Of a DNA stretch of 64,000 bases, positions 15,889-63,841 are shown piece after piece. Within the stretch, counting starts at the first letter, position 1, and every line of letters begins with the position of its first letter. Position numbers and translations under genes: made by a program. The notes under the pieces are model-generated. The model made no database searches. It worked only from the letters and a program-made list of their open reading frames with translations, and was not told the DNA's origin. The DNA comes from Bradyrhizobium semiaridum (GTDB taxonomy: Bacteria; Pseudomonadota; Alphaproteobacteria; Rhizobiales; Xanthobacteraceae), in the NCBI RefSeq assembly GCF_020329505.1, contig NZ_JAGKJJ010000036.1:1-64000 (forward strand), given 5' to 3'.

Positions 15889-15916
15889 TGGCCACAGTGG
15901 TGCCAGCAATATCCAT

Positions 15917-16033
15917 GTCGTCCTGGCGAAGGCCAGGACCCATAACCACAGGATTGCGTTTGGCGAAGAACAACGAGCACCATGCCCTATTGGTGGATTC
16001 CGCGGTATGGGTCCTGGCTTTCGCCAGGACGAC
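15917..16033. repeat. 117-bp element with 27-bp terminal inverted repeats (copy 1)
   Basis: The first 27 bp (GTCGTCCTGGCGAAGGCCAG onwards) and the last 27 bp are inverted copies with one mismatch. Each end is itself a hairpin, CCTGGC-(4 nt)-GCCAGG. Two related copies are at 23545-23665 and 60619-60739. The interior of this copy differs from the other two. It separates the DUF1036 gene from the nucleotidase gene. Confidence 0.85.
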
Positions 16034-23506: not shown

Positions 23507-23544
23507 CTCAGGGTGACGATGATGGAATTGCGGTAAGCCTCCCC

Positions 23545-23665
23545 GTCGTCCTGGCGAAAGCCAGGACCCATAACCACCGAATCTGATTGAGAGCGGGATA
23601 GTGGCCCCAGCGTCGCGCAACACCAAGCAGTTGGGATAATGGGTCCTGGCTTTCGCCAGGACGAC
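23545..23665. repeat. 121-bp element with 27-bp terminal inverted repeats (copy 2)
   Basis: The ends GTCGTCCTGGCGAAAGCCAG and CTGGCTTTCGCCAGGACGAC are part of perfect 27-bp inverted repeats. Each end forms CCTGGC-GAAA-GCCAGG. The interior matches the reverse complement of copy 3 (60619-60739) over most of its length, and both are exactly 121 bp. It lies between ampG and a convergent secreted-protein gene. Confidence 0.9.
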
Positions 23666-56852: not shown

Positions 56853-56894
56853 CAAACATATGATGAGCCTCGATCGAATCCGCGAACTCACTGT

Positions 56895-57030
56895 GCCCCC
56901 TCTCCCGCGCGCGGGGGAGGGTTGGGGTGGGGGTCTCGCCACAATCGAGAGTCACCAATTGGATAAAACCCCCACCCGGATCGCATCTGTCGATGCGATC
57001 CGACCTCCCCCGCAAGCGGGAGAGGTGAAG
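56895..57030. repeat. GC-rich palindromic repeat (copy 4), in the soxY-soxZ gap
   Basis: CCCCCTCTCCCGCGCGCGGG at the left pairs internally, and CCTCCCCCGCAAGCGGGAGAGG closes the right. The centre holds ATCGCATC...GATGCGATC. It lies inside the sox operon, between two genes that must be made together. Confidence 0.8.
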
Positions 57031-57073
57031 CGAGCCCGCGGTCGGGTCGCTACGACAACAGAGGACTAAACCG

Positions 57074-58550: not shown

Positions 58551-58580
58551 CACGTTAGGGAGGCATTGGCGAGCGGGTTC

Positions 58581-58681
58581 CCTCCCCCCTTGCGGGGGAG
58601 GGTTAGGGAGAGGGGTGAGCCGCACGGGCGGTGTTCGTGGCTCACCCCTCTCTCCAGCTCTCCCCCGCAAGGGGGGAGAGA
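58581..58681. repeat. GC-rich palindromic repeat (copy 5), in the soxK-soxB gap
   Basis: CCTCCCCCCTTGCGGGGGAGG forms one hairpin and CTCCCCCGCAAGGGGGGAG the other; GGGGTGAGCC and GGCTCACCCC pair across the centre. It precedes the soxB start by about 47 bp. Confidence 0.8.
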
Positions 58682-58727
58682 GCCCTACCACCGCCCGCGT
58701 GGCTTCGAACCAAATGCCGGGAGAGTG

Positions 58728-60476: not shown

Positions 60477-60618
60477 TGCGGCACTATTCTGGCCGCCACC
60501 ATCGTACCGTCAGGTGCCGTGCATTTGGTGGAGCTGCCGGAGCTGCATCCGGCAGCGAGGCTACTCGATCCGCGCATATGCCGAAGGTATGGCTCGCGAG
60601 CGGTGCCAAAGATTCAGC

Positions 60619-60739
60619 GTCGTCCTGGCGAAAGCCAGGACCCATTACCCCCAGCCGCGAATTGTTGCGCGACGGTGGAGCGACTATCCCCTCTCGATCA
60701 AATTCGGTGGTTATGGGTCCTGGCTTTCGCCAGGACGAC
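60619..60739. repeat. 121-bp element with 27-bp terminal inverted repeats (copy 3)
   Basis: This copy is the same length as 23545-23665 and is inverted relative to it. Its reverse complement matches that copy through most of the interior, including an ATAACCACCGAAT block and a GTCGCGCAACA block. The ends fold into CCTGGC-GAAA-GCCAGG. It lies between soxB and the persulfide dioxygenase gene. Confidence 0.9.
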
Positions 60740-60828
60740 GGCGTGCGGGAGGCCGCTCGCCAAAATTTCATATCGTGGCGCAGGGCACCGGAATCTCCTG
60801 GGGATGGATTTGCTTTGAGTCGACCATA

Positions 60829-62048: not shown

Positions 62049-63068
62049 CTACCGCGTCACGCGCTGCAGCTCCGCGGTCAGCTTATCCAGCGCATCCGCC
62101 AGCATCACGCCGCCGCAGACCGTGAGCCGCTCGGGCAGCACGATGCGCTTGTCCGGCGGGTAGAAGCGCTGCAGCGCGGGGTGCAGCAGGAAGGCGCGGC
62201 CGTCGTCCTCGGCGCGGTCGCCGGCCTCGGCGACCAGGATGAAATCGGGTCGCAGTTTTACAATCGCTTCCAGCGAGGCGAAGCCGCCGGCGCCGATGCC
62301 GAGCTCGCCGGCGGCGTTGGTAAGACCGACTTCCCTGAGCAGCGAATTGACTAGGCTGGCTTCGCCGGAGACAAAGCCGCGGCGCTCCAGCGGCAAGGCG
62401 CGATAATGACGGCCGCTCGCCGCGGCCCGCGCGCGGGCGATCGCGGCATCGAGCCGGGCGATCACGCTTGCCGCGCGATCCGGATGCTGCACCACATCGC
62501 CCATCTCGCGGATCTGCGCCTTCACCTCGTCGAGCGTGCGCGGCACCGTGAACTCGACGAGATGCAGCCCGTTGGCCTTCAGCAGCTCGCGCGTCGCGCG
62601 CTTGTCGAACAGGCTGACGACGACGATATCCGGCTTCAGCACCAGCACGTCCTCGGCCTCGCCCGACAGTCGCGGATAGTTGCGCGCCTTGTCGGCGGCC
62701 CACGATTGCCAGGCATCGCGCGAGAACCGGCTGAGGCCGAGGATCTGGTCGGGATCGGCCAGCGACAGCACCAGCTGATCGCTGCACACATTCATCGAGA
62801 CGATGCGCGGACCGTCGGCGGACGACGCGCTAGGCGAGATAAGGCAAGCGAGAACCGAGAGCGCCAGGACAAGACAACAGGAAGCGAGACGGCGGCCACG
62901 AACCCGCCGCGCCCCCTCTCCCGCTTGCGGGAGACGGCTGGGGCGGGGGTTTTGCCGCAACGAGCACTCTTCGAATGGAGAGAGCCCCCACCCGCCGCGC
63001 TCTTCGCGCGCGGCGACCTCCCCTGCAAGCGGGAAAGGTGAAGCGAGTTTGCGGCAGCGCCACCGCAT
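62049..63068 (-). CDS. BtuF/FecB-like periplasmic binding protein with repeat-derived N-terminus
   Basis: The helical-backbone TroA/BtuF domain begins RIVSMNVCSDQLVLSLADPDQILGLSRFSRDAW, after a signal segment LASCCLVLALSVLACLISPSASSA. It should capture a corrinoid, heme or ferric siderophore. The ATG at 63068 overlaps the ATPase stop (TGATG), but its first 50 or so residues are a translated GC-rich repeat (62911-63043). TTG at 62960, with GAAGAG before it, is an alternative start inside the repeat. No ATG lies between the repeat and the signal segment, so either the repeat forms the N-terminus or initiation is at a non-ATG codon. Substrate is unresolved. Confidence 0.75.
   Translation of the reverse strand: MRWRCRKLASPFPLAGEVAAREERGGWGLSPFEECSLRQNPRPSRLPQAGEGARRVRGRRLASCCLVLALSVLACLISPSASSADGPRIVSMNVCSDQLVLSLADPDQILGLSRFSRDAWQSWAADKARNYPRLSGEAEDVLVLKPDIVVVSLFDKRATRELLKANGLHLVEFTVPRTLDEVKAQIREMGDVVQHPDRAASVIARLDAAIARARAAASGRHYRALPLERRGFVSGEASLVNSLLREVGLTNAAGELGIGAGGFASLEAIVKLRPDFILVAEAGDRAEDDGRAFLLHPALQRFYPPDKRIVLPERLTVCGGVMLADALDKLTAELQRVTR
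62911..63043. repeat. GC-rich palindromic repeat (copy 6), inside the binding-protein reading frame
   Basis: CCCCCTCTCCCGCTTGCGGG at one end and CCTGCAAGCGGGAAAGGTG at the other belong to the same family as copies 1-5. The repeat lies within the 5' part of the open frame at 62049-63068 and keeps it open. Its reading gives residues such as LASPFPLAGEV...LPQAGEG, the same kind of peptide seen when copies elsewhere are read through. Confidence 0.85.
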
Positions 63069-63841
63069 CACACGTCTGCCCACGGCACGATGACGGCCTC
63101 GCTTCGGTACTCGGCGCGATAGGCGCTGATCCGGAACACCTCGGCCATCACCGCCTCCGACAGCGCCTCGCGAGGGGCGCCCTGCGCCACGAGCCGGCCC
63201 TCCGACAGCAGCAGCACGTGATCGGCGAAGCGCGCGGCGAGGCCGAGATCGTGTGTCACGACGATCACCAGCACACCGGCATCGGCGACGTTGCGCAGTT
63301 TTTGCATCACGTCGATCCGGTGGCGCGGATCGAGCGAGGCGGTCGGCTCATCGGCCAGGATCACCGGCGCCTCGACCGCGAGCACGCGCGCCAGCGCGAC
63401 GCGGCTGCGCTCGCCGCCGGAGAGCTCGGTGACGCGGCGGTCGGCGAACTCGGTGACGTCGACCGCCTGCATCGCCCTGATCACCGCGTCGAGGTCCCTC
63501 TGTGACAGCCTTGCCGGATCGGTCGCGCCGTGCGGATAGCGGCCGAGCGCGACGATGTCGCGCGCCGGCAGCGGCCAGTGCACCATGTGGCCCTGCGGCA
63601 GGTAGGCAAAACGTTTTGCGCGCTCACGCAGCGGCAAGGCCGCCAGCATGTCGCCGGCGATCCTGATCTCGCCGCTGGACGGGATCAACCCGGCCAGCGC
63701 ACGGAGCAACGTGGTCTTGCCGGCGCCGTTCGGGCCGACCAGCGCGACCAGATGCCCTGCAGACAACGACAGCGAGATATCGTGCAGCACCTTCCGAGTG
63801 CCGAGCGATGCATTGAGGCCCGTGGCGGAGAGCAACGTCAT
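63068..63841 (-). CDS. ABC transporter ATPase, BtuD/FecE/HmuV type
   Basis: The 257-residue ATPase has Walker A GPNGAGKTT (residues 37-45), a Q-loop (YLPQG), the signature LSGGERSRVALARVLAV, Walker B VILADEPTASLD and the H-loop VTHDL. It powers uptake of corrinoid, heme or siderophore. It is flanked by permease (ATGA overlap) and binding-protein (TGATG overlap) genes in one operon. Confidence 0.92.
   Translation of the reverse strand: MTLLSATGLNASLGTRKVLHDISLSLSAGHLVALVGPNGAGKTTLLRALAGLIPSSGEIRIAGDMLAALPLRERAKRFAYLPQGHMVHWPLPARDIVALGRYPHGATDPARLSQRDLDAVIRAMQAVDVTEFADRRVTELSGGERSRVALARVLAVEAPVILADEPTASLDPRHRIDVMQKLRNVADAGVLVIVVTHDLGLAARFADHVLLLSEGRLVAQGAPREALSEAVMAEVFRISAYRAEYRSEAVIVPWADV

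Follow-up and report, generated by a model that had tools for sequence, protein, structure and literature searches.

Is a dispersed palindromic repeat translated as the N-terminal part of a periplasmic binding protein, or does it merely lie between two genes of an operon? The question is raised by a transporter locus of Bradyrhizobium semiaridum in the 64,000-nt stretch of contig NZ_JAGKJJ010000036.1 that was analysed, called the window below. Here the minus strand carries an ABC transporter ATPase gene (63068-63841; ABC_tran, E 9.7e-31) and, behind it, a gene for a BtuF-like periplasmic binding protein (62049-63068; 339 codons and a stop; Peripla_BP_2, E 3.5e-24), whose ATG at 63068-63066 overlaps the ATPase stop at 63070-63068 as TGATG (63066-63070). 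The sequence-only reading had placed a repeat between this coupled ATG and the signal segment, with the frame left open; that is indeed the arrangement, as the minus-strand frame stays open from the ATG at 63068 across repeat and signal segment to the Peripla_BP_2 domain. The proposed span of the repeat, 62911-63068, was close but shifted: by alignment of copies, with the edges set by eye, the element lies at about 62892-63055 on the minus strand and would, when read, supply about residues 5-59. The predicted signal-peptide helix of an AlphaFold model (residues 61-76) corresponds to 62841-62888, minus strand.

The curated BtuF model matches the binding protein, but below the model's cut-off, and the PDB offers only weak relatives among periplasmic binding proteins. 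A cobalamin riboswitch (123.9 bits) lies on the other strand at contig positions 64994-65194, divergent to the transporter operon, and is followed by an ORF that we take to resemble a TonB-dependent receptor. Hence a B12-binding role, that of BtuF, is likely.

That the repeat belongs to a real dispersed family, as the sequence-only reading had it, is borne out by BLAST: the genome of the window itself gives 75 matches, and 32 of them span at least 97 of the 159 query bases. Matches at E ≤1e-6 number 47 and 53 in two other Bradyrhizobium genomes (G009 and G003, arm-only rows included), and 33 of 61 genomes drawn from the taxonomic family have a match at E ≤1e-10, many over one arm only. The count of five further copies in the window did not hold: BLAST finds one other full copy (56891-57034, minus strand; 77-86% identity; RNA fold z -10.6) and an unstranded pair of inverted arms with a partial match (58575-58685), which precedes an ORF with a clear ATG (MRIRRRDFLK). 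An arm-motif search of the window with up to 2 mismatches gave 11 overlapping matches versus 1.4 expected by chance, all of them at the btuF repeat and these two places. Direct and inverted repeats at 15912, 23540, 60614 and 60688 belong to another family; this second dispersed family occupies 15912-15954, 23540-23596 and 60614-60741 and begins near CGTCGTCCTGGCGAAAGCCAGGACC.

The unit is about 165 nt long, with several hairpins, the arms being hairpins themselves; its inverted ends, of the GCCGCGAA type, were recognized by eye only, and the insert measures 168 nt in two genes. No target site duplication was evident by eye in the site alignments, and Rfam gave no family over the repeat, either at E up to 1 or at gathering scores. 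We propose that these are palindromic, MITE-like elements of Bradyrhizobium.

Filled and empty btuF loci

A search of the genus returned a close orthologue of the binding protein (E ≤1e-125) in 35 of 265 genomes and a match at E ≤1e-30 in 100 of 242; 23 of the 112 match rows of the latter search, weaker or second matches, were left unfetched. Two sets of 30 and 40 loci and 60 fetched stretches made up 130 loci, 129 of them usable (L087 is cut off), and removal of 35 duplicates left 94 distinct ones. Seventeen of these carry the repeat, 1 carries another repeat (L157), 1 ends within the repeat (L008) and 75 are others, L157 and L008/L073 being counted apart from the repeat-bearing loci. In 74 of the 75, the ATPase stop and the mature part are no more than 100 nt apart; the coupled frame (a distance of 2 modulo 3) recurs in 66, a different short layout is present in 8, and 1 locus is unlinked. 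In the alignment of orthologues that the sequence-only reading had called for, close empty orthologues have the identical TGATG layout and share the coupled start codon, 16-18 codons before the mature part. Among distinct loci that share 78% or more identity with the protein of the window, 16 of 37 have the repeat.

From the same perspective, filled loci can be asked whether they keep the frame that begins at the ATPase stop. As at the empty loci with the coupled start, the distance to the mature part is 2 modulo 3 in 15 of the 16 filled loci that have the ATPase upstream, even as its length ranges from 140 to 293 nt; the one deviation is L022, which is shifted by one base relative to the coupled ATG. 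Within the filled alignment, gains and losses are codon-sized, a second palindrome of 51-54 nt is nested in the repeats of L012 and L023, and a compensating +2/+1 pair occurs in L027 and L082; in L004 and L024 the copies are shortened between the arms. Among 8 loci, the codons of the repeat have no third-position excess of differences (180/184/156), and one is present in the signal part (293/272/391). The reading frame is thus kept, but the peptide shows no amino-acid constraint.

Start codons point the same way. No start behind the repeat is common to the filled loci, and in 6 of the 17 the stretch from the repeat up to the signal helix has no ATG, GTG or TTG at all; of these, L010, L025, L027 and L082 are four species with both arms, the others being L004 and L024. 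It had been suggested that the protein might alternatively begin at a TTG inside the repeat (62958-62960, minus strand, first letter at 62960), in which case only the second half of the repeat would be translated in the window species. The codon is as described, in frame and the sole other ATG, GTG or TTG between the coupled start (GTG or ATG) and the signal helix, and the listing of start codons in the 17 loci has it at the same place in L001, L007, L011, L012 and L014. The other 12 lack it, however, and empty orthologues use the coupled start, which makes a TTG start very improbable, although in the window the codon could serve as one. Filled orthologues with a clear downstream start, the outcome named beforehand as speaking against translation, are not the rule, the exceptions being L022 and L020. 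From these comparisons of sequence, we consider it probable that the repeat is translated in frame from the coupled ATG as a leader ahead of the signal peptide of the BtuF-like protein.

Three loci deserve separate mention. In L157 (G100:C100:32919-33079) a different repeat family, with 51 mostly short matches in G100, lies in frame at the same place of btuF; the site thus seems able to accommodate inserts of this kind. L020/L077 (Bradyrhizobium sp. NAS96.2) lacks the ATPase gene upstream; its repeat, which may stand at a rearrangement joint, contains the first in-frame start, an ATG. In L008/L073 (B. uaiense) the contig ends in the repeat, the interior of which seems to be inverted, perhaps through an error of assembly.

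As for the history of the insert at btuF, a tree of the mature part (44 rows) requires 11 switches between filled and empty, and well-supported branches force at least 9 of them. In a tree of the repeats, the window copy clusters (SH-aLRT 95) with the btuF copies of L011, L012 and L014, apart from the other copies in its genome; 6 of 14 btuF copies fall elsewhere in this tree, which has few columns and is mostly unresolved. Inheritance with losses, allele exchange and several insertions are all possible, and L150 and L028 may be separate insertions.

This pattern also bears on a possible function of the translated leader: it might, for example, adjust how the binding protein is translated or exported, and owe its retention to this. 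Such a function would fit the number of close loci that carry the repeat and the grouping of the window copy with three other btuF copies. It would also fit the longer signal helix region of filled alleles, which exceeds that of empty ones by about 6 residues, a difference that the repeat itself does not explain. Yet the absence of amino-acid constraint, the shortened copies of L004 and L024, the 11 changes of state and the empty site in the closest relative found (L067, 94% identity) all run counter to it, and we regard it as quite improbable.

In-frame copies in two further genes

Two unrelated genes carry the repeat in frame as well. The SURF1 gene (PF02104) starts on the stop codon of the preceding gene, as GTGA; the gene ahead is presumably cyoD. 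Among 30 SURF1 loci fetched, 5 have the repeat (L038, at G000:C34:65674-65813, L166, L167, L170 and L171) and 1 has a remnant (L165), all in frame from the GTGA start, and 13 other loci at least 72% identical are empty, with one identical spacing. A nested palindrome like that of L012 and L023 recurs in the SURF1 copies of L167 and L170, again with the frame kept. The second gene, with POR and DUF6537 domains, we take to be of the indolepyruvate ferredoxin oxidoreductase type. Here the repeat stands mid-gene, in the opposite orientation and in frame, in 4 of 30 loci (L058, at G000:C62:20860-20986, L193, L196 and L197), and every filled locus exceeds 25 of the 26 empty loci by 168 nt in length. 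Since these copies lie in the middle of a gene, the argument from alternative starts cannot remove this case. Strains with the repeat include B. ivorense CI-1B and Bradyrhizobium sp. C9 at the binding-protein gene, C9 also at SURF1, and B. uaiense UFLA03-164 at the oxidoreductase gene. The claim that a mobile-type repeat has become part of a 5′ coding region thus gains, as far as comparison of loci can carry it, from the frame kept at btuF and from these two genes.

When 30 copies from each of G000, G009 and G003 were surveyed, partly by eye, only those in btuF, SURF1 and the POR/DUF6537 gene were classed as coding. Other open copies were rejected as coding because a likely start lies behind the repeat, as judged by eye (L051, L221, L223, L228, L236, L240, L241, L246 and L250; L260, L265, L271, L276 and L278), and the L060 rows of the survey are an artefact of a short locus.

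An open frame may of course arise by chance in GC-rich sequence, and the repeat might be nothing but an untranslated intergenic hairpin, with translation starting at or behind its end. The control is the set of G000 and G009 copies that lie in none of the three genes, of which 52 of 55 could be measured. The length from arm to arm is divisible by 3 in 13 of 15 btuF copies, 5 of 5 SURF1 copies and 4 of 4 oxidoreductase copies, versus 26 of 52 controls, 19 of which are also open in that frame. The copies of the window genome were left out of the test, because SURF1 and the oxidoreductase had been chosen for having an open copy there. With these and L020 removed, 19 of 20 copies stand against 26 of 52 for length (p 3e-4) and against 19 of 52 when openness is counted (p 4e-6); for btuF alone (12 of 13) the values are 0.01 and 4e-4. 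These tests treat related species as independent, and the p values are therefore optimistic.

In favour of the hairpin, more than a third of the control copies (the same 19) are open with a frame-keeping length, the RNA folds strongly, the content of the peptide is unconstrained, and several copies open into other genes have a likely start behind the repeat; moreover, the passages of PMC3733652 considered here caution that many N-terminal REPs may be extragenic. Against it stand the frame kept in 15 of 16 loci, the existence of mid-gene copies, and start codons behind the repeat that are never common to the filled loci and missing altogether in 6 of 17. An untranslated hairpin therefore seems unlikely. 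RNA structure was not weaker in gene copies than in copies outside genes (p 0.12), and with a hairpin of similar strength in both settings the repeat may also have a role as RNA.

Placement behind stop codons and a proposed route into proteins

How might such an element come to be read? In the three genomes, 45 copies lie between tandem genes, 35 between convergent and 3 between divergent ones. Within 40 nt of a copy are 61 of 115 flanking stops versus 8 of 51 flanking starts (p 6e-6), as placed by a gene caller that is a simple codon-usage score; 6 of 89 copies, in-gene or unclear, were excluded, with btuF and SURF1 copies otherwise kept. That REPs lie close to the 3′ ends of genes is also reported in PMC3733652. 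When an element lands behind a stop that serves as the next gene's start, it has to be read through.

For btuF, the course that we infer, from re-initiation and translation to removal with the signal peptide and near-neutrality, would be as follows. Elements of the family mostly settle close behind stop codons, and since the start of the binding-protein gene overlaps the ATPase stop, an element inserted behind this stop would come to separate start codon from signal peptide. Re-initiation at the coupled ATG would then take ribosomes through the element in frame, and the product would carry a proline-rich leader of about 55 residues, predicted to be unstructured, ahead of the signal peptide. 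In the AlphaFold model (35 sequences, mean pLDDT 70), residues 1-61 fall below pLDDT 50, ahead of the helix at 61-76, and the fold begins at about residue 89. The simplest view of a frame that is kept around a peptide that is not is that the leader is lost along with the signal peptide, signal peptidase most likely removing the two together. The mature protein would be unchanged, and the insertion therefore tolerated and near-neutral.

A wider reading is possible, though on balance doubtful: the family may be a coding-compatible mobile palindrome, independent of that of Rickettsia, carried in frame in genes in either orientation, whose habit of settling behind stops would, where operon genes overlap, repeatedly give rise to new N-terminal leaders in front of membrane or export signals. 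The palindromic arms spell nearly the same peptide on both strands (PLPLAGE ... PPPQAGE), and carriage in frame in either orientation would be possible for this reason. Insertion behind a stop, combined with overlapping genes, would be a simple route from mobile DNA into protein. Numerous species of this free-living genus, with filled and empty alleles, length changes that keep the frame and a mid-gene case, together make a natural experiment. For annotation there is also a warning, namely to avoid shifting such starts downstream.

Relation to known palindromic elements

Protein-coding palindromes are best known from Rickettsia. The likeness to these in-frame elements, which the sequence-only reading had drawn, holds by analogy: the btuF repeat works like them. 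What was found is a palindromic dispersed repeat, within a size range of about 100-170 nt, that is in frame in unrelated genes with empty orthologues. The palindromic elements of Rickettsia (RPE), in the passages of PMC10969869 and PMC2229807 drawn on here, are units of about 105-150 bp, likewise palindromic and in frame within unrelated genes, with relatives that lack the insert. Unlike them, the Bradyrhizobium repeat has a free-living, GC-rich host, is found in only three genes and lies mostly near stops, and in two of the genes it enters via an overlapping start; the two are likened by behaviour, not by sequence kinship.

Another comparison is with YPAL/RU-2 of Yersinia, described in the relevant part of PMC2229807 as 168 bp with a 56-residue open frame and in-frame fusions, in one of which the signal peptide is partly formed by the element. 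The difference is that the hydrophobic Yersinia element supplies part of the signal, whereas the btuF repeat precedes an existing one. From the same genus, Br-REP1 and Br-REP2 of B. japonicum USDA 110 contain palindromes too and are located in 3′ untranslated regions according to the section of PMC5082802 consulted, but the consensus sequences printed there differ from the btuF repeat when compared by eye. Searches of a limited literature collection for Bradyrhizobium palindromic or in-frame repeats, MITEs and N-terminal extensions found no description of this element; in the same collection, the arm sequence gave no match and shorter words of it gave only unrelated-looking papers.

The GTAG- and CGTC-tagged REPs of PMC3733652, a study whose genera include Bradyrhizobium and whose text has the phrase "protein-coding palindromic repeats", are similar in being palindromes near the 3′ ends of genes, some of them inside ORFs. 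As described there, they are units of 20-40 bp with tag tetranucleotides, unlike the btuF repeat of about 165 nt with its several hairpins. Many N-terminal cases are called doubtful in that source, and the frame-keeping of the btuF repeat argues for coding. As far as sequence can, this answers, for the btuF locus, the published doubt whether N-terminal repeats are coding or misannotated. The CGTCGTCCTGGCGAAAGCCAGGACC family of the window resembles, by eye only, the CGTC-tagged REPs of the same excerpts.
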